Positions 40,238 to 57,483 of a stretch of 64,000 bases of DNA are shown piece after piece (position 1 is the first letter of the stretch; every line of letters starts with the position of its first letter). The notes beneath the pieces were generated by a model, which saw only the letters and a list, made by a program, of their open reading frames with translations, was not told where the DNA came from and ran no database searches. A program made the position numbers and the translations under genes. The stretch lies in the NCBI RefSeq assembly GCF_016405855.1, contig NZ_JAEFCA010000004.1:344075-408074 (forward strand), given 5' to 3'. The DNA comes from Flavobacterium sp. IB48 (lineage in GTDB: Bacteria; Bacteroidota; Bacteroidia; Flavobacteriales; Flavobacteriaceae).

Positions 40238-41617
40238 TTACTCTGAAAACTCTAATTTTTTCAATTTATTCCAGCCTCCGCGGGTAAAATCCGGGATTTC
40301 TACAGGAGCAGAACCGTTATCAAGCGAGATTTCTGTTAAAGGACCTAAACAAGACCATTCGGCTAAATCGTAAACGTCCATGTCAAGTGGAAGTCCTTTT
40401 TGGAGACAATGAATTAAACGATAATCCATAATAAAATCCATTCCGCCGTGACCGCCTACTTTTTTGGCTTGTTCTTCAATTCCTTTAGCAATTGGGTGTT
40501 TGTATTTTTCCATTAATGCTTTTTTTACTTCTTCAGGAACAAAAGAATGAGCACTTAATTTTTCGTGATTTGGTTTTACATCATCACCTAATTCTTTTCC
40601 ATCCAAAGCATAACCTTCTAATGGATATTTGTTAGCAAAACCTTTTGTACCACTCAACTGATACATTCTGCTGTAGGGACGAGGAGAAGTCACATCGTGC
40701 TGAATTTGGATTGTTTTTCCGTTTTCAGTACGAATCATTGTCATCGTGTGATCTCCATTTCTAAAATCTTTAATTTCCTGTCCTGATTTTTCTTTAATGT
40801 AAGCAGGATTTCCTACGGCTTTTGTATCCATAGAAACCAAAAAATTCATTTTGTCACCACGGTGAATATTTAGTGCCTGACACGCAGGTCCCATACCGTG
40901 TGTCGCATAAACATCACCGCGGTGTTTGATGTTGTAATCCATTCTCCAGTTGTTCCAGTATTCTCCCCAGAAAGGTTGTAAACCATGAATATAAGAACCT
41001 TCAGCATGAAGAATTTCTCCAAAAACACCTTGTTGTGCCATGTTTAATGTTGTCAATTCGAAGAAATCATAAACGCAATTTTCCAATTGCATACAGTGTT
41101 TTCTCGTTTTTTCTGAAGTATCAATAAGTTCCCAGATTTCTTTCATAGTTAAAGCGCCAGGAACTTCTATTGCAACGTGTTTTCCATCTTTCATGGCCTG
41201 AACTCCAATTACGGCATGATGTTTCCAATCTGTGGCAACATATACTAAATCTACGTTTGGCAAGGCCGTTACTTTTCTCCAAGCATTTTCGTCACCGTAG
41301 AATTCTTGTGCTTTTGGAAAACCTGCTTTGGTTAAAATTTCATTTGATTTTGCAGTATTTTCTTGAGTCATGTCGCACAAGGCTACAATCTCAACACCCG
41401 GAATATGTGTCATACGTTCTACAGCTCCAGGACCGCGCATTCCAAGTCCGATGAAAGCAACACGAACGGTCGGAATCGGATCTGCAGCCATTCTCAATAC
41501 GTCTTGCTGTCCTTTTGGACGAGAAGGTGTTTTGGTCTTAATCATTTGTGCGGATGCAATTGTCCATCCGAACAAAAGAAAAAGGATTGTTATAGGTTTT
41601 AAGAAGCTAATTTTCAT
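40238..41617 (-). CDS. GH109-type Gfo/Idh/MocA-fold protein (alpha-N-acetylgalactosaminidase family)
   Basis: A secreted (signal peptide to about 24, ending ASAQ) 459-residue protein. The nucleotide-binding start VRVAFIGLGMRGPGAVERM, CDMTQENTAK, EVPGALTMKEIWELIDTSE and YATHGMGPACQALNIHRGDKM are hallmarks of GH109, whose founding members remove terminal alpha-GalNAc by an NAD-dependent mechanism. Other family proteins act on other sugars, so alpha-GalNAcase activity is only the best guess. It lies at the end of the minus-strand glycan locus; a stem-loop at 41649-41679 separates it from the M1 gene, so it may have its own promoter. Confidence 0.87.
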   Translation of the reverse strand: MKISFLKPITILFLLFGWTIASAQMIKTKTPSRPKGQQDVLRMAADPIPTVRVAFIGLGMRGPGAVERMTHIPGVEIVALCDMTQENTAKSNEILTKAGFPKAQEFYGDENAWRKVTALPNVDLVYVATDWKHHAVIGVQAMKDGKHVAIEVPGALTMKEIWELIDTSEKTRKHCMQLENCVYDFFELTTLNMAQQGVFGEILHAEGSYIHGLQPFWGEYWNNWRMDYNIKHRGDVYATHGMGPACQALNIHRGDKMNFLVSMDTKAVGNPAYIKEKSGQEIKDFRNGDHTMTMIRTENGKTIQIQHDVTSPRPYSRMYQLSGTKGFANKYPLEGYALDGKELGDDVKPNHEKLSAHSFVPEEVKKALMEKYKHPIAKGIEEQAKKVGGHGGMDFIMDYRLIHCLQKGLPLDMDVYDLAEWSCLGPLTEISLDNGSAPVEIPDFTRGGWNKLKKLEFSE

Positions 41618-41648
41618 GAGTGATTATTGTTAGATAATTTTTTAAAAC

Positions 41649-41679
41649 AACCTCTCTAATGAACCAAATTAGAGAGGTT
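41649..41679 (-). terminator. Stem-loop between the M1 peptidase and GH109 genes
   Basis: aacctctctaat (41649-41660) pairs perfectly with attagagaggtt (41668-41679). The minus-strand T-run after it is weak (ttgtttt), so it may attenuate or stabilise RNA rather than fully stop transcription. Confidence 0.65.
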
Positions 41680-41716
41680 TTCAAAAACAAAAACAGACCT
41701 AAAGGACTTTTAATAA

Positions 41717-43900
41717 TTATTTTTGACTACTAAATCTTTTCATTAATGGCGTTACATGTTTTTTGGTATCGTCATCTAATGAACCTAATGCTTTATCTGA
41801 TTCGGCTGGTGCGTATTTTGTTAATCCTGATAATCCAGCTGCAATTACGTTGTATGATTGTTCTTTTATGCTTTTGTCCATCAATGCTTTATAAGAAGCA
41901 TCGCCTGTAGAAGCTAATTTTACAATAGCATTTGCTCTTGCAATAGTTTTTTTGTCGTTTTTAGCAATATCAAGAAGCGTTTTTAAAACCTGATCTTTGT
42001 TTTGTTTCTCATTTAAATCAATTGCTTTGATACTCAATACTCTTAAGTCTTCTTGAGGATCTTTTAAGCCTTCTAGTAAAATAAGCTGTGACTCCTGACT
42101 TCTGTCTTTTGAAGCAAATTTTATAGCTTCAATTCGATTATAATACGATGGCGCATTTTTATACTGAAAAAGATAATCAGCAGCCGTTTTTTTATCGACA
42201 TTCACTTCGCCAACTAAGATTTTATCTGGATCTAAGTCGATGAATTCAGGTTTTGAAGGAAGATCAAAACTGAAACTTTGTTGTCTTTTATCAATTAAAA
42301 TATCCTTTCTTATTTTAGTTCCGTTTACGTAAAAATCAACTTTTAAAGGCAGTGTAAAGGTTTGCACCGAACTATCTTGAGATTGACTTATTGTAATGGT
42401 AACTTTTCCATTAGCATATTTGTAAGTTACATCAAGAATCGGACTTCCAGCATTATAATACCATTGATCAAAATAAGGCAGCCAGTCTTTTCCAGTCACT
42501 TCTTCCATCGATAAACGCAACTGATGTGGCTCACCAGATTTATATGCATTTGTAGTCAAATAATGATTTAGTCCTTTAAAAAAGGCTTCGTCACCCATTT
42601 GATTTTTCATGGCATATAAAATAATCGAACCTTTAGAATAGCTGATATTATCAAACATATCGTCTGCGTTTCTGTAATGAAAACGAGCTAAAATAGGGCT
42701 GTCACCATTTTTTTGAGAACGTAAATAATTCTGCAATTTTTCATAACGAGATCTGTCTTCACCATCTTGTCCAGCATCATGTCCGTGCCAAAGCACTTCT
42801 CCAAAAGTGGCAAATGATTCGTTCATTGTTAAGTTTGACCACGACTCAGCTGTTACATAATCTCCAAACCATTGGTGAAAAAGCTCGTGAGCAATGGTGC
42901 TTTCTTGATTATCATCCAATAATTCTCGTTCTGTTTTCTGAACATATTCGCCATGAACGGTTGCCGAAGTATTTTCCATCGCACCTCCAAAATAGTCTTT
43001 CACCACAATTTGCGAATATTTTGCCCAAGGATATTCTACACCAAGCATTTTGCTGTAAAAATTCATCATATCTGGCGTTTTATAAAAAATCTGTTTGGCA
43101 TAAGGCGCATATTTCGGTTCTAAATAATAGCTGACTTCTTTGCCATTATAAGAATCTTTATAGATTTTAAAATCACCAACGGCCATCATAAACAAATAAG
43201 GCGCATTTGGCTGTTCCATTTTCCAGATATCAGTTCTTGTTCCGTCTTTATTTACTTTTTGTGAGGCTAATTTACCGTTTGAAAGCGTCGTATATTTTGC
43301 CTCAACAGTCATCGCAATTTCAGAAGTTGTTTTCTGATTTGGTTTGTCAATTGTCGGGAACCAGCAAGAAGATGCTTCTGTTTCGCCTTGTGTCCATATT
43401 TGTGTTGGTTTGTCACCTTTTCCATCAGGATTAATAAAATACAATCCGTTTGAATTGGTAATCGATTCGCCAGCTTTGCTTTTCAGTTCTGCTGGTTTTG
43501 CAGTATAATTAATGAAAATCGTATACTTTTCTGTGCTTTTGTATTTTCTGTTTAAAGCGATTGAAAGTTCTTCGTTATCATATTTATATTGCAACGGAAT
43601 GCTTTTTTTACCATCAATAATAGCAATTTCTTTAAAATCCATTCCTTTTGCGTCCAGCTTAAGCGAATCAGTTTCGTAGAAATGAGGTTTTAAAGTAATC
43701 CATTCCTTTCCATACAAATAGCGTTTTCCATAATCGAAAGAAACTTCCAATTTGGTATGAATTAAATCGTGTGTTTTTAAAGGAGTAGTGCGGTAAATGG
43801 ATAATTCATCAACCTTTTCTGCTTTGTTTTGTGCCTCAATTTTTGGACTCATCAAAACGACAAGACCCAAAAAAGTATATTTTAAAAAATGGTTTTTCAT
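41717..43900 (-). CDS. M1 family zinc metallopeptidase (aminopeptidase N-like), secreted
   Basis: 727 residues from the ATG at 43900, where MKNHFLKYTFLGLVVLMSPKIEAQ is a clean signal peptide; an earlier start adds a basic non-signal stretch. The M1 motifs are complete: GGAMEN (305-310) and HELFHQWFGD (HExxH at 338-342) with the third zinc ligand Glu361 in NESFA. A C-terminal HEAT-like helical region begins near 590. It removes N-terminal residues from peptides in the periplasm or at the surface. It lies 22 bp after the DUF5107/TPR gene, so it belongs to the glycan locus, suggesting a glycoprotein or peptidoglycan-peptide substrate (inference). Confidence 0.93.
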   Translation of the reverse strand: MKNHFLKYTFLGLVVLMSPKIEAQNKAEKVDELSIYRTTPLKTHDLIHTKLEVSFDYGKRYLYGKEWITLKPHFYETDSLKLDAKGMDFKEIAIIDGKKSIPLQYKYDNEELSIALNRKYKSTEKYTIFINYTAKPAELKSKAGESITNSNGLYFINPDGKGDKPTQIWTQGETEASSCWFPTIDKPNQKTTSEIAMTVEAKYTTLSNGKLASQKVNKDGTRTDIWKMEQPNAPYLFMMAVGDFKIYKDSYNGKEVSYYLEPKYAPYAKQIFYKTPDMMNFYSKMLGVEYPWAKYSQIVVKDYFGGAMENTSATVHGEYVQKTERELLDDNQESTIAHELFHQWFGDYVTAESWSNLTMNESFATFGEVLWHGHDAGQDGEDRSRYEKLQNYLRSQKNGDSPILARFHYRNADDMFDNISYSKGSIILYAMKNQMGDEAFFKGLNHYLTTNAYKSGEPHQLRLSMEEVTGKDWLPYFDQWYYNAGSPILDVTYKYANGKVTITISQSQDSSVQTFTLPLKVDFYVNGTKIRKDILIDKRQQSFSFDLPSKPEFIDLDPDKILVGEVNVDKKTAADYLFQYKNAPSYYNRIEAIKFASKDRSQESQLILLEGLKDPQEDLRVLSIKAIDLNEKQNKDQVLKTLLDIAKNDKKTIARANAIVKLASTGDASYKALMDKSIKEQSYNVIAAGLSGLTKYAPAESDKALGSLDDDTKKHVTPLMKRFSSQK

Positions 43901-43922
43901 TTTTATTGTTTTTGAAAGTTCT

Positions 43923-46900
43923 TTACAATTTTTCGATAATTCTAACTTCACCGTCTTTTTCATCTTCACTCAAAATATTCGAAGGTTTTTTGGTGTAAGA
44001 CAATAAAGTCCACTGCACTATTTTATTTGTCGGATATAAATCTGCCTGAGTTTTAATCCATTTTTCTGCCTCTTGTGAAGAAGACGTTTTCTCAATCGCC
44101 CAAGCCGAAACAAGGTTGTTCGCCGGAAGGAAATTCATGACCGTATTATCCACTACAGGACGGAAAGCGACGATTTTATCTAAAGATTTAGAAGCCATTT
44201 CTTTATTTCCTAAATTGGTATAACATTGATAATCCAGCCAGTTTTCTAATCTTTCGTCTATGTTTTCGTCATACGGTTTTCCAACGCCTAAATTCTCTGG
44301 AAACAGTTTGGCATCAGCAATAAATTGTAATGCTTTTTTGTATTGCTTGTTTTTGATTTCTGCTAAAGCCTGCATCAATTTTGCTTCATGATACAATTGT
44401 CTTCCAGCTGTTGCGCCTTCAAACGGAAGGATTTGCAATTTGGTTAAGAACGAATCGGCTTCGCGGTATTTTTTATTTAGCAATAAAGTTTTAGCGTAAA
44501 GCATTCCAATCAAATAATTGTCTTGATGTTTTTTATAGAAAGATTCAGCCGTTGTAAGCGCTTTGTCAAATTGTTTTTGAGCGATGTAATGTTCTGCCAG
44601 CATTTTATGGTATCTCCAGCCTTGCGGATCTAATTTTATTGCCTGCTGAAGACTTGCCAATACTATTGAGGCATCGTCTTTGAATAAAGAAGCTTTTGCG
44701 CCATAAAAAGCAGGATCGATTGGTTTTGAACCGCATTCTGAAAACAATCTTTTAGCTTCTGAGATGCTGTTACGATTCCATTCAATTAAACCTAAATGAT
44801 ATTTTAATTGGTATTGATCATTTGTTTTAATTAATGATTTCAAAATTTCAGCCGTCTCATTTCTAAAAGGGAAGCTTGTTCCAGGTTTGATTTTGCTTAC
44901 ATCAACAGGTTTGTTTTCTAAAAAGGCTTTCCAATAGATAATTTCAGCACTTGGTTCTGCAATAGAAAATACTTTTAAAGCTTCTTCTTTTCGGCTTATA
45001 TTATTATACCAGATTCCTAATTCAAGAAAAGTCTGTTCTGGCATTTCGTTTTGAATGGCAGTAACAAAAGCATTTTTTGAATCGTTTGAATTATTCGAAA
45101 GGTATTTTTCAAAATCAGCAAAATGATTCAGCGGATCCAATTTTGTAATGGTTTTTAAAACCGAATTTGCTTTATCGGAATTATTTTGAAGACGATATAA
45201 AACCGCTAAAACCTGTAGACCTTCTATGTTATATTGATTGTATACCAAGCTTTTCTCAGCATATTCAATCGCTTTTGAAAGATCGTTTTCGGCCAAATAA
45301 ATTTTGCTTAAAGCGGTATAAGCTGGACTGCGGAATTCGACACTTGCGGCAGCAATATCAAAACCATCTTTTGCATCGGTATTATTTCCTAAATGAAAAT
45401 TAGCCAAAGCATAAAAATAATTACCCGCAGGATCATAAGTGTCTATTGATAAAGCTTTACTTGCCGAATTTATAGCTGCTTTGTAATCTAATTTTCTGAT
45501 TTGCAAAGAAGCCAATGCAGAAAGAGCAGGAGCGTAGTTAGCATCTAATTTCAAACAGGCATTTAATTTTTCTTCGGCAAGTACATAATCTTTAAAACTG
45601 ATGTAATTTTTCCCCTGCAAATACAATCCATAAACCGAATTATGATCAAAATCTTTAGGTATTTCTACAGGGCGATTGATGTTTCCGTCTTCTGGAGCAG
45701 AATTCCAAACCAATTTATTGCCACCCAAAACAAATTTCAATTTATTAGAATCGACTTTACCCTGAATAGAATCTTTGAAAGTTTGGAGTGTATTTAAAGC
45801 AATATCTTTAGAATATACTTTTTTGTCATTTTCAAAAACTTCAATTTTTTCATTTAGTTTTTGAAGCGGAGAAAAATAGATTTTCAGCCAGCCGTTTTCG
45901 TTTTTAATATTGACAGAACCGTAATTATTAGCTTTTACAAAACCTTTCGTCTGCTTTACAGGAAACCAATATTCAGTCCAAGTATCGGTTTGATAAGGCG
46001 CAAATGAGCGCTGTTTGAAAGGCGTAAGATTACTGCCTTCGCTCGCCTGATTAAATAATCTTCCGCTTTGTACTTCTACATATTGTCCGTCGGTATCGGT
46101 TAATAATTTTTCCCAAATCATTCCTTGCTGCGACAATCCCCAAATCCAGATTTTTTTGCCCGGTTTATCATCGTGATTGCCGTATCTTCCCATTCCGAAA
46201 TCTTCGTCATGATAATATCCTCCAAAGAAATCATCGTATTTCCCGAATACGTGATACGATTTGTAGCCTCCAAAATTATTGTTTTTGTAGAAAGATAAAT
46301 TTTTACCGTTTTCTTTGTCAATTGGCCACGAATTGTATTCTCCGTTATGACCAATATAGGTTTGTCCTGGATAAATAAACTGCAGATTTTCGGCCGCTTT
46401 AATTCCCGTATTTATCCAAGTATAGTAAGGCTGTTCGAATTCGGTTGTGTTTGACCAAAATGAATTTGTGGTAAAATACGCTTTGTCTTTAGGAAGATTG
46501 ATGTCTAATTTCCAAGAAGTTCTTGTCAATAAATCTAAAACCCCAATCACACAGCTAATGCTTCCGTCTTCTCTGTTTATGATTTTGTAATCGACAGGAG
46601 TAGCGCAATTTGGCGTGTGTCCGATAATTCCATAATTGCCTTCAACACCACCGCTTGTCCAAGGTCCGCGCATGGCAATGTCTCTAAATTTTACCACATG
46701 ATTATTGTAAACAATATCTTTTCCTGTAGATTTTTCTATAGCTGACCAGACTTTTCCGCCAATTTCTGGCAGAATCATCAGTTTGATATAACCGTTTTCA
46801 ATTTCGATTACTTTCCATTCTTTCTGAACGGGTTTATCAGTAAAACCGTCAAAACGGAAATACGGATAAAACTTGGTATCTGGTTTCGGAATCGGATCAG

Positions 46901-47018
46901 GATCTGAGAACGGATATGTCGTAAATACTTTTTTGTATTCTTTTATAGTGGGTTTGTTTTGTGCGGTGACAAAAAGGCTTCCAAGGAGTAAAAAGGATAG
47001 TAATGGTCTAAATTTCAT
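43923..47018 (-). CDS. DUF5107 domain protein with TPR repeats, secreted
   Basis: A 1031-residue protein with a signal peptide ending in VTAQ. The first third (about 35-345) is a DUF5107 domain (YPYFRFDG, KLMILPEIGGKVWSAIEKSTGKDIVYNN, RGPWTSGGVEGNYG, GHTPNCATPVDY). Its beta-sandwich pattern recalls aldose-epimerase-like and GH-associated folds. From about 465 onward come many TPR units (LNACLKLDANYAPALSALASLQIRKLDYKAAI and similar). The biochemical function of DUF5107 is not known to me. It sits between the putative glycosidase and the M1 peptidase in a SusC/D-led locus. Confidence 0.85.
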   Translation of the reverse strand: MKFRPLLSFLLLGSLFVTAQNKPTIKEYKKVFTTYPFSDPDPIPKPDTKFYPYFRFDGFTDKPVQKEWKVIEIENGYIKLMILPEIGGKVWSAIEKSTGKDIVYNNHVVKFRDIAMRGPWTSGGVEGNYGIIGHTPNCATPVDYKIINREDGSISCVIGVLDLLTRTSWKLDINLPKDKAYFTTNSFWSNTTEFEQPYYTWINTGIKAAENLQFIYPGQTYIGHNGEYNSWPIDKENGKNLSFYKNNNFGGYKSYHVFGKYDDFFGGYYHDEDFGMGRYGNHDDKPGKKIWIWGLSQQGMIWEKLLTDTDGQYVEVQSGRLFNQASEGSNLTPFKQRSFAPYQTDTWTEYWFPVKQTKGFVKANNYGSVNIKNENGWLKIYFSPLQKLNEKIEVFENDKKVYSKDIALNTLQTFKDSIQGKVDSNKLKFVLGGNKLVWNSAPEDGNINRPVEIPKDFDHNSVYGLYLQGKNYISFKDYVLAEEKLNACLKLDANYAPALSALASLQIRKLDYKAAINSASKALSIDTYDPAGNYFYALANFHLGNNTDAKDGFDIAAASVEFRSPAYTALSKIYLAENDLSKAIEYAEKSLVYNQYNIEGLQVLAVLYRLQNNSDKANSVLKTITKLDPLNHFADFEKYLSNNSNDSKNAFVTAIQNEMPEQTFLELGIWYNNISRKEEALKVFSIAEPSAEIIYWKAFLENKPVDVSKIKPGTSFPFRNETAEILKSLIKTNDQYQLKYHLGLIEWNRNSISEAKRLFSECGSKPIDPAFYGAKASLFKDDASIVLASLQQAIKLDPQGWRYHKMLAEHYIAQKQFDKALTTAESFYKKHQDNYLIGMLYAKTLLLNKKYREADSFLTKLQILPFEGATAGRQLYHEAKLMQALAEIKNKQYKKALQFIADAKLFPENLGVGKPYDENIDERLENWLDYQCYTNLGNKEMASKSLDKIVAFRPVVDNTVMNFLPANNLVSAWAIEKTSSSQEAEKWIKTQADLYPTNKIVQWTLLSYTKKPSNILSEDEKDGEVRIIEKL

Positions 47019-47285: not shown

Positions 47286-50200
47286 TTACTTAACAATCAA
47301 TAACCATCCTTTTCCTTTAGGAACAGTTATTTCGTCTTTTGTTGTGAACGTTTTTGCCGGTTGGAAATTGGTAACTTCTGGAGCAGCAATCGTTGCTTTT
47401 GCAGGATTGATTCCTAGTTTTTTCCAGTCAATATTTAGTTTCACATTTACATCAGCATCTGCCCAGCTTGCGATTGAAATTAAAGCCGTTCCATTCTTTT
47501 TATAAACCGTTGCTAGAACTTTGTCGTTGTTTGTTTTTACAGGACAGTTTTCGCTCCAATATCCGATCATTTCAGAACCTTTAATTCCGAAAGAATCCCA
47601 AACTTTCCAGATGTTTCTTGGGTCTGCACCGTCGCTCCAAGGCAATCTGTTCGTCATTCCGTAAACCATTCCTCTCCACGGATTTCCACCATCTTGAAGC
47701 ATTTCTCCCATTAATCCAAACGGAATTCCGCTTACTTCAGTTAAGAAAAAGTCAGGTTGATTTTTCTCATAATCAAAATATTCTCCAAACCATAATTTAT
47801 TGATGTACGGGAAGTGCTCCATGTATAAGTTGGCACTGTTATTAAATCCGTCGCTTTTGTTGTATTGGTTCGCACTATGCAAATCGATAATTCCAGGATG
47901 ACCGTCTTTAGTCAATACTCTTTTGATACGTTTCATTGTAATTCTGTCAAAAGCAACGTCATCTAGATAAATTCCGTCAATACCAACATTTTGAGTCAGC
48001 CAATTCATTCCTTCCACATAGTAATTGTGCCAACGATTCATGCCACTATTTACTATCGCAGCATCTTTAATTTCAGGTACAAACCACGCTGCGATATAAT
48101 CGTCACCAACATGTTCTTGAAGCCAAGAGAATCCGCCACCTTTTCCTGGAGAATAAATTTCGTGGCCTAAACTTCTAAGAGCGAAAGTTTCATAAGCTTT
48201 GTTTGAAACCTCTCTAACTGTGTTGTAGATTTTTACTTTTAATCCTTTTTCGTGCGCTTCATCGATATATGATTTCATCTTTTTAAATTCGATAAAAGGA
48301 TAATTGATATATGGATTGATTGCATTTGCGTGGTGAATATTAATTACTGTTGCACCAGTTTTAGCGATTGAATCAATTGGGCTGTATTTGTGGTAAAATT
48401 TTGTATCCCATTGAAAATCTGTATTGATCGTATGGAAAGGCGTAATCAATAAGTTGAAGTTGTAATACAAAACATCGCCTTTTTTCATTGTTCTAGCACC
48501 GCTGTACGCATTTACTAGAACCGATTTTTGGTTTGGCGTGATGGTAATACCGCCCTTATTTTCGTTACCCCATGAAGTAGGCAGCAATAAAGGTTTTTGT
48601 AAATAGAAATTAGTATTTAAAGGGCGGCTATATTTTTCATCTCTCAAAGAAAACTGCAATCCAGAATTTACAGCACCAATCCAAGCTCCGTCTTGATTTT
48701 TATGCGCTACATCCCATTTCCAATCAAAAGTTGCAGGACGATCTCCACCTTTTTGACCTAATCCCATCATGTATTTTGCAGATGTTGGCTGCATTGGCAT
48801 TTGGAAATTAATGTCATTAAAGGCAACATCTTCAAGAGCTGTAACTTTCACGATATAATGTACGAAACCATCAAATTCAACAGAAGCATTTACATCCATT
48901 TGAACCGATTTTGAAGTAGAAGTACTTTCCCAAGAAACCGTTCCAGCTTCTTTTTTAGTGAATTTTACACCGCTGTTTTTCCATTGCACTTCTTTTCCTG
49001 ATGCGTCAACAAAATGAAAATCGATTGGTGAGCTTAAAACATCATTTGCTTTTGCTGTTACAGAAGTCATTTCTGGAGTAAAGAAAGTCTGAATTTGCGC
49101 AGGGAATCCGTTTGGAGCTAAAATTAATTTTCTTCCTAATAAAGCAATTTCAGAATTGTTTACGGTTAATGGAGTATAAGGCGCAATAACCGTATTTTCT
49201 TGAGCTAAAGTTGAGTTTAACCATTTTAGTCGAGTCATTTTTTCTGGACTGTCAATACCTCCGTTTTTTGTTACTTGGTTAGAAACCGTAATTTGAAGAT
49301 TGATTTCTTTTGATTTTCCGTCAGCAATAACAGTTGCTTTTCCGTTGTAAGTTCCTGCTGCAGCTGTTTGCGGAACATCGATACCGCACCACATTGCCTG
49401 AATTTTTCCTTTTGAAACAGAAACAGTATTGGTGAAAGGATTACCGTCATATTTCGTTCCGTCAGTATTGATACAGCTGATATCTTTCGCTTCGATTGTT
49501 GCGCCAGTTGTACTTACTAAATTCGTAAAAGTTACTTTTATGTTTTTTAAATCTTCAAGAGCATAAACGCCTAATTGAAAAGCTAAATATTCACCTTTCA
49601 TTGCCGTATCAGAAAAGCTGTTTTGAACGCCTTTTTGAATCCATCTTTGTGGCAAATCTGATTTTAATTTGATAGAATGTTCTCTGTCTTCTGGGAAAAC
49701 TAAGAAAGAATTTCCGCTGTTTTTTGCCACAAGAGCTGAAGTTTCGGCAGCTGTCGCAATTACTTCCATTGGATAAAAACTATTGAAAGCATTCACGCTC
49801 TGAATTTCTGTTACAGCCGCATTGTCTTTTAAGTTTGCTTTTACATTAGAAAGCCATTTTGCATCGGCTTTGTCTTCAGGTTTCTGATAAATTCCTTTTG
49901 GGTAATTTGCCGTTCCTTCGTCAACATAAGGCATATAATACACGTAATATGTTCCTTTTCCCGAAATTGGTTCGAAGTAAATAGTACCGTTTTCTCTATT
50001 GATATTTTCGGTTTTTATGTTCTGAATATCTTTTCCAGATGCATCCTGAACGATAATTTTTTTAAGTTCTGGATTCGTGTCTCTTCTTCGCCATTCGATC
50101 GTTGTTTTAGCAACATTTCCTGAACCAGAAAAAGCAACTACAGCACGGTGATTCCCTAATTTATTCGGATTCCAGCTGTCATTTCCGTCTGAATATTTAA

Positions 50201-50288
50201 TTTGTGCAGTTAGAGGAATACTGATCGTGATAAAACACATTATCAATATTCTGCTTAAAAGCGTTGTGTTGTTTAGGTTTAGTTTCAT
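47286..50288 (-). CDS. Large secreted protein with glycoside-hydrolase-like TIM barrel (DUF6067-like)
   Basis: 1000 residues with a signal peptide (ending in PLTAQ). Beta-rich N-terminal modules run to about 620. A barrel-like C-terminal domain follows: VINIHHANAINPYINYPFIEFKKMKSYIDEAHEKGLKVKIYNTVREVS, then GIDGIYLDDVAFDR (about 765-785) with paired Asp residues at a likely active site, then DLHSANQYN and EYFDYEK. This arrangement matches glycosidase-like DUF6067 proteins; relation to GH123 or similar barrels is possible but not shown. The C-terminus is a small beta-domain. It lies in the glycan locus after the cytochrome gene. Substrate unknown. Confidence 0.75.
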   Translation of the reverse strand: MKLNLNNTTLLSRILIMCFITISIPLTAQIKYSDGNDSWNPNKLGNHRAVVAFSGSGNVAKTTIEWRRRDTNPELKKIIVQDASGKDIQNIKTENINRENGTIYFEPISGKGTYYVYYMPYVDEGTANYPKGIYQKPEDKADAKWLSNVKANLKDNAAVTEIQSVNAFNSFYPMEVIATAAETSALVAKNSGNSFLVFPEDREHSIKLKSDLPQRWIQKGVQNSFSDTAMKGEYLAFQLGVYALEDLKNIKVTFTNLVSTTGATIEAKDISCINTDGTKYDGNPFTNTVSVSKGKIQAMWCGIDVPQTAAAGTYNGKATVIADGKSKEINLQITVSNQVTKNGGIDSPEKMTRLKWLNSTLAQENTVIAPYTPLTVNNSEIALLGRKLILAPNGFPAQIQTFFTPEMTSVTAKANDVLSSPIDFHFVDASGKEVQWKNSGVKFTKKEAGTVSWESTSTSKSVQMDVNASVEFDGFVHYIVKVTALEDVAFNDINFQMPMQPTSAKYMMGLGQKGGDRPATFDWKWDVAHKNQDGAWIGAVNSGLQFSLRDEKYSRPLNTNFYLQKPLLLPTSWGNENKGGITITPNQKSVLVNAYSGARTMKKGDVLYYNFNLLITPFHTINTDFQWDTKFYHKYSPIDSIAKTGATVINIHHANAINPYINYPFIEFKKMKSYIDEAHEKGLKVKIYNTVREVSNKAYETFALRSLGHEIYSPGKGGGFSWLQEHVGDDYIAAWFVPEIKDAAIVNSGMNRWHNYYVEGMNWLTQNVGIDGIYLDDVAFDRITMKRIKRVLTKDGHPGIIDLHSANQYNKSDGFNNSANLYMEHFPYINKLWFGEYFDYEKNQPDFFLTEVSGIPFGLMGEMLQDGGNPWRGMVYGMTNRLPWSDGADPRNIWKVWDSFGIKGSEMIGYWSENCPVKTNNDKVLATVYKKNGTALISIASWADADVNVKLNIDWKKLGINPAKATIAAPEVTNFQPAKTFTTKDEITVPKGKGWLLIVK

Positions 50289-50325: not shown

Positions 50326-51327
50326 TTAGTAAACGGCTTTCCATCCTTGTTTTTTCCAATAAGCAATAATAGGTTTATAAGGGCCGTATTTATGCTGTTC
50401 TTCAGTAAAACTATCATTAAACGGACTGTGTGCATAATCAATCGGTTTGCCCATTTTGTCTGGATAATCCAATGTTTTTGGGTTTGGTCTTGTATGTACA
50501 GAATCGTCGTTTACATAAGCCGCAATGTCAAGTGCTTCTTTGTCTGTAAGATACGGTTTTCCTAGTTGAACTTTATCATAAGGCATATTGCTTTTTAGCC
50601 ATTGTGCTTGTTTGATTACGCGATGCATGCTTGAACCAGGCTGATAACCGTATTGTCCCCAAAGTGGAGGGTAGGTGTAACCCGATTTGTCGGCATTGTA
50701 AACTCCCTCGCCATTATTTCCGTGACATCTTGCGCAGTTTTCAGCAAATAAAACTTTTCCTCTTTCTGGACTTGCGGCAACATCTGGAAATTCGATTTCT
50801 AAATTTTTGGCTCCTTTAAAATTACCATCTTTTGGAACAAATTTACTGATCCATTTAAAGTACGATAAAAACGCCACCATTTCTTTGCTGTCCAACGGAA
50901 GCGGTTTTCCAGAATGCGGACGCATAATGCAGTTATTAACTCTTTCTGCTAAAGTAAGTACTTTGTTTTCGCGTCCGCGATATTGTGGATAATTGTCATG
51001 CGAAGACATTAAATTGAATGCATGAGGTTTTGTTCCTGCATCTTGATGACAGTTCGTGCAGTTCATTTTATTGCCTAAATATTGTCCTTTTTTTCCGTTT
51101 GGGCCAATGTAATAAGCGGTTTTCATCATTAATTCTTTTCCATAACGAACCGATTCTCCAAATTGATCGTCTGGAATTTGGGAAGTATCAATTGTGATGT
51201 AACCTTCATCTTCTTCTCCTTCTTCGATTGTATTTGAAGCTAAAGTCTGTGAATTGGTTTTGGTGCAGGAATTGAAAACAGCGATTGACAATGCTGAAAA
51301 AAGTCCGATAAGAATTGTTTTTTTCAT
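50326..51327 (-). CDS. Dihaem cytochrome c lipoprotein, TsdA-like (thiosulfate dehydrogenase family)
   Basis: 333 residues with a lipoprotein signal ending in FNSC (Cys21). Two haem motifs are present, CTNCH (90-94) and CARCH (198-202). The N-terminal domain resembles thiosulfate dehydrogenase TsdA: YGKELMMKTAYYIG, then YPQYRGRENKVLTLAERVNNC. Cys133 falls where TsdA has its unusual cysteine haem ligand, followed by SGKPLPLDSKEMVAFLSYFKWIS. In TsdA this site oxidises thiosulfate to tetrathionate. The protein is odd in a SusC/D locus; it starts 13 bp after the sulfotransferase-like gene, so both are cotranscribed. Confidence 0.85.
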   Translation of the reverse strand: MKKTILIGLFSALSIAVFNSCTKTNSQTLASNTIEEGEEDEGYITIDTSQIPDDQFGESVRYGKELMMKTAYYIGPNGKKGQYLGNKMNCTNCHQDAGTKPHAFNLMSSHDNYPQYRGRENKVLTLAERVNNCIMRPHSGKPLPLDSKEMVAFLSYFKWISKFVPKDGNFKGAKNLEIEFPDVAASPERGKVLFAENCARCHGNNGEGVYNADKSGYTYPPLWGQYGYQPGSSMHRVIKQAQWLKSNMPYDKVQLGKPYLTDKEALDIAAYVNDDSVHTRPNPKTLDYPDKMGKPIDYAHSPFNDSFTEEQHKYGPYKPIIAYWKKQGWKAVY

Positions 51328-51340
51328 GGGTACTATTTTT

Positions 51341-52747
51341 TTAATTTAGAAGAAAAGGTTTTAGTTTTTCTTCAGGAATAAAGATCGTTCTGTATGGAGG
51401 AATTTCAGATTCTAATGCCCAAATAAGTATTCCTTTTTTATTTGTCAAAACTGTAATATGTCTTTTAGAACAACAAACCAAAAAGAGGTCTTTATTGATC
51501 ATGTAAGCGCTTCCCATTCGGTCATTGTAAATATCTTTTGGTAATTTGATATGAAAATCAAGTTTTACATCATTGTTTTTTTCGTCTACTTTTAAGGCAA
51601 AAACAGAAGATTGTTTGATGTCGACTCCATTATCAAAAAATAATAAACTGCCTTCTTGATCGATATGTGCGGCATGAGCCTGGGAGAAATTAGCATCTGG
51701 AGCCATTTTCATAGTTCCGCCTTTCCCTAATTTCCAGATTACTTTTCCAGTTTTAGAATTGATTTTCCAAATCTGGCCATTGTTGTAGAAAGAAATTAAA
51801 AAGTTTCCATCTTTATCGTAACTCAAACTGTTGGCATGCGTCCAATCCTTTTTGGTTTTTAGTAAATCTTTATCTTTAAACGGATCTAAATCATCAAAAA
51901 CACTCCATTTCCAAAGCTGTTTTCCTTTTTTATTTAAAATTATAATTCCGTCTCCGTTGATGGTATCTTGTTTTTTCCCTCCAATAGAAGTCAAATCGAT
52001 TATTTTTTGCTCAACAGTTAAAGCGACAATTTCGTCAGCCGATTTTTTTATGATTTCATGATGAAGAACCTGCTTCAAATCGCCCTGTCCTTTTTTGATG
52101 TGGGTTAAAGTATCGCCTTGAAAATTTATTTCAAGGATTTCGCTTCCATAACTTGTTGGTTCGTCATTTGTACCCAAAATAGAAAGAATCGTTTGGTCTT
52201 TTGTAAAGTGAGTAACTTTAAATCCAGTTCCTTCAATAGTATGATACCATCTTAAGTTTCCTTTGTAATCAACAATATAAGCTGTTCCTGGAGTTTCTCT
52301 TTTCGCTAAAAGCATAAAGCCTTTTTTGAAATTTTCAGGCAATAATTCTGGTTTCGGACAATTGGCTTTGAATTGTTTCTGTAGCCATTCTGGAAGTTTT
52401 CTTGATTTGAAAGCATAAACTTTACTAGTTTGTTTATTTCCGTCTTGAACTGTAATTAATTGAAAACTATAATCGGTTTCTGGAATTATGTTGCAAAGTA
52501 CCAAGGAATGTTTTAAACCAGTATTTGAAATAGGAGAGGTTATTTTATTTTCAATTCCTTTTTTGTCAGACCAATATTCTGCATATACCTGAGCTTGGTC
52601 ATTCGTAGTAACATCGATTTGAATTTTCAATTCGTTGTTGCTATGAGTGCCAATATTGATATTGGAGATAATTTGGCTTTTAGAACAGCTTGCCAGTGCA
52701 AGGAGAACTAAAATAAAACTTCCTTTTAATATTAATTTTTTGATCAT
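51341..52747 (-). CDS. Arylsulfotransferase (ASST)-like lipoprotein
   Basis: 468 residues with a lipoprotein signal ending in LASC (Cys21). The remaining chain is a beta-propeller with the ASST-type segments DWTHANSLSYDKDGNFLISF, GKVIWKLGKGG, FSQAHAAHIDQEGSLLFFDNG and GSAYMINKDLFLVCCSK, including the histidines expected near the active site. PAPS-independent ASSTs move sulfate between phenolic compounds in the periplasm. Neighbouring genes code for a TsdA-like cytochrome and SusCD, so transfer of sulfate from or to a glycan-linked aromatic group can be imagined but not shown. It could also be a non-catalytic propeller. Confidence 0.8.
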   Translation of the reverse strand: MIKKLILKGSFILVLLALASCSKSQIISNINIGTHSNNELKIQIDVTTNDQAQVYAEYWSDKKGIENKITSPISNTGLKHSLVLCNIIPETDYSFQLITVQDGNKQTSKVYAFKSRKLPEWLQKQFKANCPKPELLPENFKKGFMLLAKRETPGTAYIVDYKGNLRWYHTIEGTGFKVTHFTKDQTILSILGTNDEPTSYGSEILEINFQGDTLTHIKKGQGDLKQVLHHEIIKKSADEIVALTVEQKIIDLTSIGGKKQDTINGDGIIILNKKGKQLWKWSVFDDLDPFKDKDLLKTKKDWTHANSLSYDKDGNFLISFYNNGQIWKINSKTGKVIWKLGKGGTMKMAPDANFSQAHAAHIDQEGSLLFFDNGVDIKQSSVFALKVDEKNNDVKLDFHIKLPKDIYNDRMGSAYMINKDLFLVCCSKRHITVLTNKKGILIWALESEIPPYRTIFIPEEKLKPFLLN

Positions 52748-52841: not shown

Positions 52842-54353
52842 TTATTGTCTGTCGGCGTTGCTTAAATTTGGATTAAGGTCAACCTGACTTTGCGGATAAG
52901 TGTAATATTTGTTTTGCGGCATTTTGATTAAAGCTGCTTCACCAACTCTAAGATGGTATGCATTTACCAGAACATCATATTTGTTCATTCTGATCAAATC
53001 GGCGCGACGTTTTCCTTCGTAGAAAAGTTCCCATCCTCTCTCTTGTAAAATAGCATCTCTCAAACTAGTTTGCGTAAGAGCCGATAAAACCAAAAGTTTT
53101 GCATGCGACCTTCCTTTTACTTGATTGATTAGATCTATCGCTTCTTGAGTTGGACCACTTATTTCGTTTAAGGCTTCAGCTCGGCTTAATAAAACATCAG
53201 CATAACGAAGGATATTTACACTATGCCCATCGTAATATGTTGTAGTTTCATCATCGGCATATTTTCTAGTAGAAACGTCTGGCATATAAAATTCACCAGC
53301 TGGTGGCTGAGCTCCTAATGAAGGCGCTTGTTTGTGAAGTAACCCGTCTGTCCCTTCAAATTCTGGGAAGAAACATTGTTTTCTTTCATCTTCATCACCA
53401 AAAGTGTTATAGAAATCCCAGTTTACAGTATAATACTGCCATCTGTTTTGAACTACAGGGTGATCAACAGGACCAAAGTGGTTTAATAATTCTGTTCCGT
53501 TTGTATTAGCATCACTTAAAGAAGAGAAGATATTTTCGCTGCACCATTTGTTACTTTCTTTAAACAAACCTAAGTAAGAAGGATAAAGACGATATTCGTT
53601 TAGATCTATTACCTGCTGAGTAAGTGTAACTACTTTTTGCCAATCGTGATTGCGTAAGTATAATTTTGCTAGTAAAGTAAGGGCAGCGCCTTTTGTAGCG
53701 CGGCCAACATCATTACTGCCATAAATTGCATTTTCTTTATAGTTTACAGGCAAAATAGCAGCAATTTCTGTAAGGTCTTTAATAATGAAAGCGTCAATTT
53801 CTTCTACAGATGATGGAGGTGTCTGCGCTAAGTAACTTGGATTTGCTATGTTTTCTTCGGTCATTAAAACAACAGGTCCCCAAGAGTCAGTCAAATCCAT
53901 ATAAGCAGATGCTCTTAAAAATTTTGCCTCAGAAATAAACTGTGCTTTTTCAATATCTGATACAGAAGACATCTTTCCGATGTAATAAATAGCATTGTTA
54001 GCATTGGAAATTAATTTATACATTGCATTCCAATCTTCTAAAAGTAAGCCATTTGCAGAATTCCATGTTCCTAAAGACAATTGGCCAGGATCTCCTCCAA
54101 ATTGACAATGTCCTAAATCTGTCGCAATATCAGTTAATGCGAAGTGTCTTGTAGCCCAATACGAAAAGTTATCACCCACAGATGGTCCTTTTAGTCTGCC
54201 GTAAATAGAATTAACTGCGGCAATAGCATCTGATTTGGTTTGATATCCATTAGTAGTCGTCAAACTGCTATATACTGTAGGATCAAGATCCTCATTGCAG
54301 GAATATTGAAGTCCAGCAGCAAGTAAAAGCAATAAAATTGTATATTTTTTCAT
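52842..54353 (-). CDS. SusD/RagB-family outer-membrane glycan-binding lipoprotein
   Basis: 503 residues with a lipoprotein signal ending in LQYSC (Cys19). TPR-rich SusD fold: AIAAVNSIYGRLKGP, EAKFLRASAYMDLTDSWGPVVLM, GAALTLLAKLYLRNHDWQKVV and the C-terminal ILRYADVLLSRAEALNEI and AILQERGWELFYEGKRRADLIRMNKY. It caps SusC and delivers glycan to it. It starts 31 bp after susC. A hairpin follows directly. Confidence 0.94.
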   Translation of the reverse strand: MKKYTILLLLLAAGLQYSCNEDLDPTVYSSLTTTNGYQTKSDAIAAVNSIYGRLKGPSVGDNFSYWATRHFALTDIATDLGHCQFGGDPGQLSLGTWNSANGLLLEDWNAMYKLISNANNAIYYIGKMSSVSDIEKAQFISEAKFLRASAYMDLTDSWGPVVLMTEENIANPSYLAQTPPSSVEEIDAFIIKDLTEIAAILPVNYKENAIYGSNDVGRATKGAALTLLAKLYLRNHDWQKVVTLTQQVIDLNEYRLYPSYLGLFKESNKWCSENIFSSLSDANTNGTELLNHFGPVDHPVVQNRWQYYTVNWDFYNTFGDEDERKQCFFPEFEGTDGLLHKQAPSLGAQPPAGEFYMPDVSTRKYADDETTTYYDGHSVNILRYADVLLSRAEALNEISGPTQEAIDLINQVKGRSHAKLLVLSALTQTSLRDAILQERGWELFYEGKRRADLIRMNKYDVLVNAYHLRVGEAALIKMPQNKYYTYPQSQVDLNPNLSNADRQ

Positions 54354-54384
54354 TTTGATAAGTTTAATGTTATTGAAAAAGCTA

Positions 54385-57300
54385 TTAATGAATTGCTATT
54401 TTGATCCCTAATATAAACGTTCTAGAAGCTGGGAATGAGTTAAAATCAATTCCTCCACCAAGATTTTGCGCTGTAGCAGTAGTAGTGTGTCCATTTATTT
54501 CAGGATCGTTTCCAGAATACTTTGTAATTGTCAATAAATTTTGCCCTATTGCATATAGTCTTATATTATCAATAAATTTGGTTGGTTTTAAAAGGCTTTC
54601 TGGGATAGAATATCCGATAGATAGATTTTTAAGACGTATGTAAGAAGCATCTTCAACAAACCTTGAGTTTACATAACTACCATAAGCACTTTTGTAATAA
54701 CCATCTCTTGGAATATCAGTATTTTCATTTGTACCAGCAACCCAACGATTCAAAGCATCAGTACTTGTGCTTGATTCTCCAACCATTCTGGTCATGTTAT
54801 AAACAGAGTAATCAAGAGCACCTTGGAAAAATAGATTCACATCAAAATCTCCGAATCTAAAATCATTATTAAAACCAACAATGTAGTGAGGAGTAGAATT
54901 TCCTAAATAAGTTCTGTCTTTAGCCGTAATCAATCCATCGCCATCTAAATCTTCGTATTTAGGATCTCCAGGTTTAGAACCAGGTTGCGCAGCATAAGTT
55001 TCACCTGTTTTTATTACTCCAGCATATTTAAATCCATATAATACACCCATTTCTTTTCCAGGTTCTAATCTTGTAAATTCACGACCAGAAACCGTACCGC
55101 TTGGATTAGAAGTGTTGTAACTAATTATTTTAACATTCTCTGCCAATGAAACAACCTCTTGTTTATTATAGGCAAGATTTAGTGAAGTTCTCCAGTAAAA
55201 TTTATCATTTTTGAAATTCTCACTGCTAATACCAAGTTCAATTCCCTTATTTTCGATAGTACCTGAGTTAAGTGTTTGAGTATTAAAACCCCACCATCCT
55301 CCAACAGGAACATTCAAAAGAGCATCTGTTGTTTTCTTTTTGTAAACATCAATTGTAGCAGTCAATCGATCATTAAAGAATCCCATATCCAGACCAATAT
55401 TAGCTTGAGCTTGCTGTTCCCATTTTAGATCAGGATTTGATAAATTTTTTGGTTCAGTACCGCCTACAAAAGAACCATCAGAAATGGTGACATTCCAAGG
55501 AGCAAGATTAGCTAGATATAAATAATCAGGAATTCCATCATTACCTGTAATACCGTAACTAACTCTTAATTTTAGTTCAGAAACGGTTTCCAAATTTTGC
55601 ATAAATGCCTCTTTTGAAATTCTCCATGCAACTGCTCCCGAAGGGAATTTACCATATTGGTTATTTGGACCAAAACGAGAAGAACCATCTAGTCTATATG
55701 TAAATGAAGCTAAATATTTATCGTCAAAAGCATAAGTTAGCCTACCAAAATAAGAAGTCAATTTTGTTTCTGTTTTTTGAGTTTCAGGTTTTAGATAAAC
55801 AGAAGCACTTTCTAGATTGTAATACGTTAATACATCATTTGCAAAACCAGAACCAGAAGCTTTCATTCTTTCGTAAGTATCTTTTTGGTTTGATGTTCCA
55901 ATCATTGCAGTAAATGCATGCTGCTCTTTGATATTAAATTTATAGGTTAAATATTGTTCTGTACTCCATCTGAAATAGGTTTTGTTTTCTTCAGATCCAG
56001 AACCATTTAAGGCAGCTCCTGCAACAAGTGTTCGTGGAGTATATTTACCTTGAATATTTTCCTGCCACTCTGCACCAGCTCCAAAATGATATGTTAAGCC
56101 TTTTATGATTTCATAATCCATAAACATGTTTCCATTAACCAATCTGTTAATAGTATGATCAGTTGGTTCTAATAAAAGCGCTAAAGCATTATCTTTTCCT
56201 TGATATTTGTAGTATGAACCATCTGCATTATAAATTGGAATTGCCGGAGGAGCAGTTTGAATAGAAAACATAGGAGATAAGATATTATCGCCAAAATCAC
56301 TATTATGTCCTTCACTTGCAGCCCCATAAACATTGGCTCCTACAGTTAATTTGTCTGTAAATTTTTTCTCTGTTCCAATACGAACACTATATCTTGTGAA
56401 ATCAGTGTTTTGTATTGCTCCAGTTTGTTTTAAGTAATTTCCAGATAAGAAAAATTTAGATGTTTTATCGCTTCCGCTAAAAGTCAACGTTCTATTAAGA
56501 ACTTCGCCTGGCCGAGTTGCCGCTTCAAACCAATTTGTGTTGGCAATTGGAAAACTTGAAGGGAAAACTGCAGGTCTGCCATTTTCAGCAGCAATAGCAT
56601 TCTGAATAGAAGCATATTGTTGACCTGTTAAAAGAGATGGTTCCTGAATAATGTTTTGGAAACCATCAGAAATTTCACCTTCAATCTGCATTTTTCCAGA
56701 TTTTCCTTTTTTAGTAGTAATCATGATAACACCATTTCCTCCTCTTGAACCATAAATGGCAGTAGAAGCGGCATCTTTAAGAATCTGAATGCTTTCTATG
56801 TCATTTGGACTAATAGATGCACCAGTACTTGTAATAAAACCATCAACTACATATAATGGAGCATTTGATGTTGTAATAGAGTTTCCTCCTCTAACAACTA
56901 TAGTAGGCGATGTTCCAGGAGCATAACTGTTCTGTTGAACTTGAACTCCAGAAGCACGTCCTTGTAATGCCTGTCCAACGTTTGAAACAGTACCACCTAA
57001 GTTTAAGTTGTCTTTTCCAACAGAAGCAACAGAACCAGTAATGTCTTTTTTCTTTGCTTTTCCGTATCCAATTACTACTTCTTCTAGTTTTTGCCCTGCT
57101 TCTTTCATGGCAATTTTTAGAGGAGTAGTTCCAATAGCTACTTCTTGATCTTCCATACCAATGTAAGTAATCACAAGTTTTGTAGCATTATCAGGAACTG
57201 TAATAACAAAGCTTCCATCTACATCCGTTTGAACACCTTTAGACGAGCCTTTAACCGTAACATTCGCACCAGGAAGAGGCATGCCATTTTGATCTGTTAC

Positions 57301-57483
57301 AGTACCTTTTACTGTTTTTTCAAAAAACAACGCCGTTTTGTTCTTATCCGAAATATTTATAGAAGAAGCTGCAGAGGCTTGACATGTAAAAACTAATAAC
57401 GAGAGAACCGTTATTCCGATTTCTTTGCTGGATAAATTTTTAATCCGAAAATCTCTTGGCTTTTTTTGGGTTAATAATTTCAT
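54385..57483 (-). CDS. SusC/RagA-family TonB-dependent transporter
   Basis: 1032 residues. A long positively charged leader precedes the signal peptide (to about 38). A carboxypeptidase-regulatory-like domain (about 57-125; VKGTVTDQNGMPLPGANVTVKG) is followed by the TonB-box and plug region (KLEEVVIGYGKAKKKDITGSVASV) and the barrel. The C-terminus ends in ILGIKIAIH. It imports glycan fragments across the outer membrane with SusD. Upstream, about 240 bp away, is a promoter with paired operators shared with the kinase gene across the regulator. Confidence 0.94.
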   Translation of the reverse strand: MKLLTQKKPRDFRIKNLSSKEIGITVLSLLVFTCQASAASSINISDKNKTALFFEKTVKGTVTDQNGMPLPGANVTVKGSSKGVQTDVDGSFVITVPDNATKLVITYIGMEDQEVAIGTTPLKIAMKEAGQKLEEVVIGYGKAKKKDITGSVASVGKDNLNLGGTVSNVGQALQGRASGVQVQQNSYAPGTSPTIVVRGGNSITTSNAPLYVVDGFITSTGASISPNDIESIQILKDAASTAIYGSRGGNGVIMITTKKGKSGKMQIEGEISDGFQNIIQEPSLLTGQQYASIQNAIAAENGRPAVFPSSFPIANTNWFEAATRPGEVLNRTLTFSGSDKTSKFFLSGNYLKQTGAIQNTDFTRYSVRIGTEKKFTDKLTVGANVYGAASEGHNSDFGDNILSPMFSIQTAPPAIPIYNADGSYYKYQGKDNALALLLEPTDHTINRLVNGNMFMDYEIIKGLTYHFGAGAEWQENIQGKYTPRTLVAGAALNGSGSEENKTYFRWSTEQYLTYKFNIKEQHAFTAMIGTSNQKDTYERMKASGSGFANDVLTYYNLESASVYLKPETQKTETKLTSYFGRLTYAFDDKYLASFTYRLDGSSRFGPNNQYGKFPSGAVAWRISKEAFMQNLETVSELKLRVSYGITGNDGIPDYLYLANLAPWNVTISDGSFVGGTEPKNLSNPDLKWEQQAQANIGLDMGFFNDRLTATIDVYKKKTTDALLNVPVGGWWGFNTQTLNSGTIENKGIELGISSENFKNDKFYWRTSLNLAYNKQEVVSLAENVKIISYNTSNPSGTVSGREFTRLEPGKEMGVLYGFKYAGVIKTGETYAAQPGSKPGDPKYEDLDGDGLITAKDRTYLGNSTPHYIVGFNNDFRFGDFDVNLFFQGALDYSVYNMTRMVGESSTSTDALNRWVAGTNENTDIPRDGYYKSAYGSYVNSRFVEDASYIRLKNLSIGYSIPESLLKPTKFIDNIRLYAIGQNLLTITKYSGNDPEINGHTTTATAQNLGGGIDFNSFPASRTFILGIKIAIH

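Follow-up and report, generated by a model that had tools for sequence, protein, structure and literature searches.

The stretch analysed here (the window) comprises 64,000 nucleotides of Flavobacterium sp. IB48, and the locus in question lies on its minus strand at positions 40238-57483. Judged from its genes, this locus of a soil bacterium would serve the import and breakdown of amino-sugar-rich glycans and encodes a protein of the arylsulfotransferase (ASST) fold right behind the importer. SusCD loci and the ASST fold are both known; the apparent variant here is an ASST-fold protein as the third component, with its usual active-site arginine replaced. A preliminary description drawn from the letters alone had reported eight minus-strand open reading frames (ORFs), and profile searches upheld their coordinates and family calls together with the 13-bp gap between the ASST and cytochrome genes (51328-51340). 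What it had called a putative glycosidase proved, more sharply, to be a full-length PF19543 (GH123_N) protein. A SusC and SusD pair thus lies in one same-strand run with glycosidase genes, as in a SusCD glycan locus. By gene content and regulation the unit is wider than these eight genes, and the CBM9, LacI, GHMP kinase, nucleotidyltransferase and major facilitator superfamily (MFS) genes, up to position 63791, belong with it. The features are as follows.

54385..57483, minus strand: SusC/RagA TonB-dependent outer-membrane importer (TIGR04056, 836 bits; TIGR04057)
52842..54353, minus strand: SusD-like lipoprotein (PF07980, 93 bits, E 3e-26)
51341..52747, minus strand: ASST-fold lipoprotein made of a propeller and an N-terminal beta-sandwich (PF05935, 102 bits, cut-off 24)
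50326..51327, minus strand: TsdA-type dihaem c lipoprotein (PF00034, PF21342; TsdA 4wqc at E 2.8e-44 by profile)
47286..50288, minus strand: GH123_N family protein, probable N-acetylhexosaminidase-type glycosidase (PF19543, 1574 bits, residues 2-969 of 969)
43923..47018, minus strand: DUF5107 and TPR protein (PF17128, 415 bits)
41717..43900, minus strand: M1 metallopeptidase (PF01433, 145 bits, E 2.5e-42; HELFH at residue 361 of the long ORF)
40238..41617, minus strand: GH109-like Gfo/Idh/MocA protein, GGHGG at 388 (PF21252, GH109_C, 144 bits)
57730..57815, minus strand: promoter copy of the SusC operon, 14-bp palindromes at 57778-57791 and 57801-57814
58163..58801, plus strand: CBM9-like protein (PF06452, 49 bits)
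58995..60035, minus strand: LacI-family regulator (PF00356, PF13407)
60094..60179, plus strand: promoter copy of the kinase operon, 14-bp palindromes at 60095-60108 and 60118-60131
60267..61358, plus strand: GHMP kinase with galactokinase signature (PF00288, PF08544, PF10509)
61365..62246, plus strand: sugar-1-phosphate nucleotidyltransferase-like protein (PF00483, 48 bits)
62412..63791, plus strand: MFS sugar transporter, nearest to NagP (461 bits, under the cut-off of 625)

The gene order was found to be conserved within the genus and beyond it. Among 121 Flavobacterium genomes, the window genome included, ASST matches occurred in 18 and cytochrome matches in 22; full-length ASSTs (at least 75% identity) and full-length cytochromes (at least 78% identity) were confined to an identical set of 15 genomes, which includes the window genome. 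Stretches fetched from the other 14 all kept the order SusC-SusD-ASST-cytochrome-GH123_N-DUF5107-M1, with extra DNA between some genes (e.g. between DUF5107 and M1). The LacI gene was kept in 14/14, the CBM9, kinase, nucleotidyltransferase and MFS genes in 13/14, and GH109 lay inside the fetched stretch in 11/14. A wider scan with an ASST alignment gave 109 confirmed loci in genomes with named records, the best 80 of which underlie every count over 80 loci given below: 46 from Flavobacterium and 34 from Pedobacter, Mucilaginibacter, Niastella, Dyadobacter, a Chitinophagaceae strain and unclassified Bacteroidota, each read with flanks of at most 10 kb, some ended by contig edges. Having been collected through the ASST, these loci are uninformative on SusCD pairs that lack one. 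SusD lay immediately upstream of the ASST gene in 78 of the 80 and a SusC-family gene came next in 77; the two remaining loci had a contig edge (L148) or an opposite-strand ORF of 113 residues between SusD and the ASST gene (L163). The cytochrome followed the ASST gene immediately in 70 loci and GH123_N was present in 67, the core heading the GH123_N operon in all 46 Flavobacterium loci. One of these, from Flavobacterium gillisiae (L132), had its SusCD swapped for a different pair, 32-34% identical. F. johnsoniae CI04 (L119) has the locus as well.

A sample of 395 genomes across the phylum served as a check less biased by ASST-based collection. An ASST-profile match was found in 44 of them and a cytochrome match at E 1e-40 in 44; the 8 genomes with an ASST above 640 bits were the same 8 that had a cytochrome above 590 bits, and the two genes were adjacent in each. 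Gene order shows a core of SusC, SusD and the ASST-fold lipoprotein that is kept across Bacteroidota genera, and the wider combination is conserved across families. The proposal that this combination is not a standard one held, with the addition that it recurs across genera in its SusCD-ASST-TsdA order. The idea of ASST plus TsdA as the essential pair did not: SusCD-ASST is the constant core, and in 10 of the 80 loci no cytochrome was found. A midpoint-rooted tree of 48 ASSTs, from which 34 of the 46 Flavobacterium rows were left out as near-copies, left open the fork that bears on which context is older, and its branches to L173 and L177 were very long. A second tree of 42 ASSTs left out L148, L151 and, as near-copies, 36 of the 46 Flavobacterium rows, its root being placed on L168-L170 by choice. 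Cytochrome presence required 3 changes on both trees, and the set of sulfate-activation genes described below required 4 on the tree of 42. Local variation was also seen around the core: many Mucilaginibacter loci (e.g. L143, L150, L153, L164) had a DUF5077/DUF3472-type and a GH109-like gene upstream, and several had an APH-family kinase (PF01636, verified on L164) in place of the Flavobacterium GHMP kinase. In Pedobacter L136 a small DUF6438-like gene (11437-11892, under the Pfam cut-off) followed the ASST gene where others have the cytochrome, and L137, L139 and L142 had an ORF of similar size there.

The SusC-operon and kinase-operon promoters are identical in 80 of 87 aligned columns, and each copy carries two 14-bp palindromes 23 bp apart. 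The window genome held four exact operator sites, all at the locus, and two further places with one mismatch; a reversed control pattern also gave two. Of the 46 Flavobacterium loci, 42 had the operator pair in front of SusC; of the 39 that hold the kinase gene, 35 had the pair in front of it and four more a single site. No operator site occurred in 677,518 bases of non-Flavobacterium loci. In the F. gillisiae locus single operators stood before SusC, ASST and GH123_N separately (4323, 9732, 12949), which ties the ASST and GH123_N genes to one regulon even with the operon broken up. L175 has one more operator pair (16944-16980), in front of a second SusC gene a short way downstream; in some species, then, the regulon extends further. 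The LacI-family regulator is the probable reader of these operators. In Flavobacterium, as promoter alignment indicates, the core heads an operon with GH123_N, M1 and GH109 genes whose promoter and operators recur in front of the sugar-kinase and transport operon, which gives the combination the marks of one regulon. The grouping would have been undermined by loss of the order in relatives or by separate promoters; the order was instead kept, and both arms share the duplicated promoter and its operators.

We then examined the ASST-fold protein. An AlphaFold 2 model built on 34 sequences (window and relatives) had a predicted local distance difference test score (pLDDT) of 89. The top rows from Foldseek and VIA-align were Cpz4 (9kf4, 9kf6; Z 34.3) and E. 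coli ASST (Z 31), and the next structural row after the ASSTs was an uncharacterised Bacteroides caccae propeller at Z 22. Residues 27-464 of the model align with both domains of E. coli ASST. Cpz4 was also the only strong sequence match in the PDB; NHL, LRP6 and TolB propellers in the list were regarded as general fold matches. In E. coli ASST the nucleophile His436 is surrounded by His252, His356, Asn358, Arg374 and Thr501 (PMC13426309). H229, H230, H304, N306, H358 and H361 were invariant in 34 aligned rows of the present family. H304, N306 and H358, positioned by sequence alignment to Cpz4, are the kept equivalents of His356, Asn358 and His436; the invariant H230 is, by its place in the sequence order, the candidate equivalent of His252. 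The window protein carries Tyr321 at the usual arginine position, where Cpz4 and the distant relatives L173 and L177 retain Arg. The ASST fold and the larger part of the site are thus preserved.

N-terminal sequences bear on where these proteins act. The SusD-derived export signal of F. johnsoniae is acidic, reading SDDFE at +2 to +6 after the lipidated cysteine (PMC5080379). Lipoboxes were sought by a simple rule, which found none in 21/79 SusD, 5/80 ASST and 4/70 cytochrome proteins; among the N-termini with a lipobox, at least two acidic residues at +2 to +6 occurred in 38/58 SusD, 0/75 ASST and 4/66 cytochrome sequences. The rule missed the SusD of the window, whose N-terminus reads CNEDLD after the signal peptide and resembles a surface-export signal. 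Because the acidic signal is nearly absent from their N-termini, the ASST-fold protein and the cytochrome probably face the periplasm, which for the former speaks against a role as a binding protein on the cell surface.

The strongest evidence for sulfur chemistry, as gene context suggests, is the presence near the core in relatives of genes for 3'-phosphoadenosine-5'-phosphosulfate (PAPS) metabolism, which lay outside the view of the preliminary description. A P-loop sulfotransferase (PF13469) or adenosine-5'-phosphosulfate (APS) kinase (CysC) gene was found in 13/80 loci, all non-Flavobacterium, with ChrA (PF02417) and CysQ in most of them; the counts over the 80 loci were 12 for the sulfotransferase, 12 for ChrA, 10 for CysC and 9 for CysQ. 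Profiles identified all four genes in L136, and ChrA and the sulfotransferase in L168, while the other loci were assigned by similarity to L136; CysQ (TIGR01331) and APS kinase (TIGR00455) scored above their cut-offs. Loci L138, L140, L146 and L147 hold the PAPS genes and the cytochrome together, and the four Pedobacter loci named above consist of core and PAPS genes, with neither cytochrome nor GH123_N within the flank. The distant relative G167, whose ASST is 32% identical, has the order ASST-sulfotransferase-ChrA with a SusC-family gene nearby. Its sulfotransferase, adjoining an ASST, was the only one above 500 bits in the phylum sample, so the evidence linking the two enzymes comes chiefly from loci collected by way of the ASST. 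The window genome had no orthologue of the Pedobacter sulfotransferase; the single partial match in the 121 Flavobacterium genomes (E 8e-4) was rejected as not being an orthologue.

The cytochrome has haem motifs CTNCH at 90 and CARCH at 198, Cys133, and KSNMP at 245-249, with C133 and M248 invariant in 18 rows. In TsdA a Cys is the ligand of the catalytic haem and a Met that of the electron-transfer haem (PMC5146829). The window protein shows the same haem features, with two CxxCH sites, a Cys as sixth ligand of haem 1 and a Met for haem 2. In L147 the first motif of the cytochrome (11438-12442) is CxxCQ, not CxxCH. A paralogue, 42-45% identical, exists in other Flavobacterium genomes, and the one paralogue neighbourhood read (L045, paralogue about 44% identical) looks like a set of sulfur redox genes. 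Its products (50-13045) we take to be MBL-rhodanese proteins, YeeE-like transporters and a SoxB-like protein. Five sampled genomes of a distant Bacteroidota family carry a close relative of the cytochrome, and in four of them (48-51% identical) it has an ASST as its convergent neighbour. These ASSTs (L229-L232) are large, of about 800 residues, and the one in L231 ends in a type IX secretion system-tail-like stretch, under the Pfam cut-off; there the cytochrome is followed by a rhodanese gene (Pfam) and a 456-residue protein with no Pfam match. This pairing lends weak support, since it may be a single inherited arrangement, the genes form no operon and several ASSTs occur per genome.

The glycan arm points to a substrate containing N-acetylgalactosamine (GalNAc), perhaps protein-linked, because of the GH123_N and GH109 proteins, the NagP-like MFS transporter, the GHMP kinase, and the M1 and M60 peptidases. 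M60 peptidases were found in three relatives, L135 by Pfam and L154 and L166 by similarity. The peptide-linked amino-sugar glycan envisaged earlier is thereby favoured; a sulfated substrate and a redox step attached to glycan use stay conjectural. The GH109-like protein has both the Gfo/Idh/MocA NAD domain and the GH109 C-terminal domain; NCBIfam glycoside 3-dehydrogenase models matched it far under cut-off, and we take its GGHGG to be a GH109 mark. The GH123_N protein matched 5l7v ('glycoside hydrolase'), presumably a GH123, weakly in the PDB (E 0.029). Its AlphaFold 2 model had a pLDDT of 61 and was too poor over residues 617-888. Against NCBIfam the kinase scored 118 bits for mevalonate kinase and 112 bits for galactokinase, both far under cut-off, and against the PDB 6e-21 for mevalonate kinase, 1.7e-20 for galactokinase and 4e-16 for GalNAc kinase. 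The M1 ORF as listed begins at GTG 43969 inside the DUF5107 gene; translation probably starts at ATG 43900, which is followed by a signal-peptide-like stretch. A motif scan, which may miss sulfatases, covered 1028 ORFs of at least 110 residues in 87 loci (L091-L177) and found one sulfatase-motif ORF, about 5 kb from the ASST gene in L170; the motif scan of the window found none. Such scarcity is compatible with an ASST standing in for a sulfatase. Elsewhere in the window genome five sulfatase matches lie within about 10 kb (G000:C22:374570-385018).

Gene order and the structural model together are best read as a SusCD uptake system that includes its own periplasmic sulfuryl-transfer enzyme of ASST type, a reading to which we give about an even chance and in which the ASST-fold protein would work like an ASST. 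An N-acetylhexosamine, probably GalNAc, would be the signal through which the LacI-family regulator controls the two arms. SusCD would import an amino-sugar glycan or glycopeptide, which the M1, GH123-type and GH109-type enzymes would dismantle in the periplasm; the sugar would then be taken in by the MFS permease and activated by the GHMP kinase and the nucleotidyltransferase. Via H358 the ASST, probably periplasmic, would transfer a sulfuryl group onto the imported material or off it, without PAPS and without a sulfatase. In the PAPS-linked relatives a sulfotransferase of the cytosol may load a small carrier that serves as ASST donor, as in the Cpz8-to-Cpz4 relay. The cytochrome would be an accessory, probably transcribed along with the rest, that may deal with electrons or with a sulfur-oxyanion product, the weakest step of the scheme. 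A fuller version would specify a dedicated periplasmic sulfuryl step of the SusCD importer in which an environmental aryl sulfate in Flavobacterium, or a cytosolic PAPS sulfotransferase in relatives, gives or receives the sulfate, the variant Arg-to-Tyr ASST moves glycan sulfate instead of hydrolysing it, and the cytochrome couples the sulfur product to electron transport; with all of these parts together it would be distinctly improbable.

Several observations weigh against a sulfuryl-transfer enzyme in this role. Foremost, the residue at the position of the sulfate-site arginine (Arg374 in E. coli) is Tyr in 74/80 loci and Phe in 6/80; a replacement throughout the lineage may mean that activity is altered or lost, and is the main doubt. 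The protein is therefore filed in the ASST (PF05935) fold family and not as a proven ASST enzyme. Neither a sulfotransferase nor CysC was found within the flank in 67/80 loci, and a search of the window genome for two P-loop sulfotransferase families, PF13469 and PF00685, found no match, so that no sulfuryl donor is apparent there. The cytochrome was not found in 10/80 loci within the flanks, and four genomes of the phylum sample (G151, G167, G223, G310) carry relatives of both proteins far apart or on different contigs. On the glycan side, the kinase resembles both mevalonate kinases and galactokinases, and the GH123 identity comes from the Pfam name, the catalytic half being poorly modelled. 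No direct sign of a sulfated substrate was seen, and with 18 sulfatase matches elsewhere in its genome the bacterium does not lack sulfatases.

The arginine loss in 80/80 loci also lends itself to a different account, in which the ASST-fold protein is a non-enzymatic binder of glycans or sulfate esters and a SusCD partner in the gene position usual for SusE or a surface glycan-binding protein. Its gene directly follows SusD, and its N-terminal beta-sandwich recalls binding proteins, although E. coli ASST has one too. We regard a binder as rather unlikely, if the most serious of the alternatives: two active-site His, a third that probably belongs to the site, and the Asn stay invariant at down to 48% identity, none of the 75 lipobox-bearing N-termini has the two acidic residues, and PAPS genes lie near the core in 13/80 loci. 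Those same PAPS genes would also suit a core that sulfates imported or envelope glycans, or toxic compounds, and strips nothing, the Flavobacterium glycoside hydrolase operon being a later association. CysC and CysQ near the P-loop sulfotransferase fit forward use of PAPS, Cpz4, the best structural match, is described as sulfating the sugar of a glycoside, and the four Pedobacter loci pair core and PAPS genes with no GH123_N or cytochrome within the flank. This account is unlikely given that the Flavobacterium core heads the GH123_N operon without exception, that operators are common to the core and the sugar-kinase operon in most Flavobacterium loci, and that the window genome shows no match to PF13469 or PF00685.

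The conserved TsdA ligand residues raise the further idea of desulfation coupled to sulfur oxidation, in which the ASST would pass sulfuryl to a reduced-sulfur acceptor and the resulting thiosulfate would be oxidised to tetrathionate by the cytochrome. The paralogue in a sulfur-gene neighbourhood (one locus, L045) and the distant-family genomes, where an ASST adjoins the cytochrome in 4/5 and a rhodanese gene stands on the other side in L231, speak in its favour. The operon itself, however, has no sulfur-gene partner, the distant-family genes are convergent and not one operon, and loci without the cytochrome exist. An ASST that transfers to a sulfur acceptor is not known to us, and we consider this route very improbable. 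That the genes are unrelated and neighbours by chance is hardly credible: the operon end is variable, as the 11/14 for GH109 shows, but the order is conserved across genus, genera and families, and the adjacency recurs in the phylum sample.

A 2026 review describes the natural acceptors and physiological role of most ASSTs as unknown (PMC13426309). The open-licence literature yielded no paper joining arylsulfotransferases with polysaccharide utilization loci (PULs) and a cytochrome, or with SusD, and, among the matches listed, none on this locus; thiosulfate dehydrogenase together with SusC and Bacteroidetes gave a single paper. An ASST-fold lineage fixed behind largely orthologous SusCD, with operators, a sugar regulon and, in relatives, PAPS genes, offers a testable physiological setting. 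If active, the protein would give Bacteroidota a sulfatase-free route to handle sulfate during glycan uptake, and the PAPS-linked core of some relatives suggests a natural job for an enzyme class mostly without an assigned role.

Among known systems, SusCD PULs and utilisomes share the SusC, SusD, glycosidases, regulator and sugar transporter; this locus differs from them in its ASST-fold third component, TsdA-type cytochrome, lack of a sulfatase motif in the window and LacI-type control. The cytochrome is like TsdA in its two haem sites, its Cys and Met ligands and the Asn before the Met, and unlike it in being a lipoprotein of a glycan operon with putative activity. The AssT of E. coli CFT073 aligns over both domains; the protein here retains its nucleophile, its Asn and a second His, and probably a third. 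That enzyme is periplasmic, encoded with DsbL/DsbI and has Arg374, whereas here a lipoprotein with predicted activity stands behind SusCD and has Tyr or Phe. The PAPS/cholesterol sulfotransferase cluster BT_0411-BT_0416 of Bacteroides likewise has PAPS supply genes adjoining a cytosolic sulfotransferase (PMC9417993). The available portion of that paper mentions no ASST or SusCD core, and the likeness noted is one of gene context. The closest mechanistic precedent is the caprazamycin sulfation pair of Streptomyces, PAPS-dependent Cpz8 and the ASST Cpz4 (PMC4257720, PMC6731281). Cpz4 is the best structural match (Z 34) and the best PDB sequence match, and a P-loop sulfotransferase occurs in 12/80 of the relatives' loci. 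The window genome, with no Cpz8-like match (PF13469, PF00685), falls outside such a relay, and the Streptomyces pair serves antibiotic biosynthesis, has no SusCD, and keeps in Cpz4 the Arg that corresponds to Tyr321 here.

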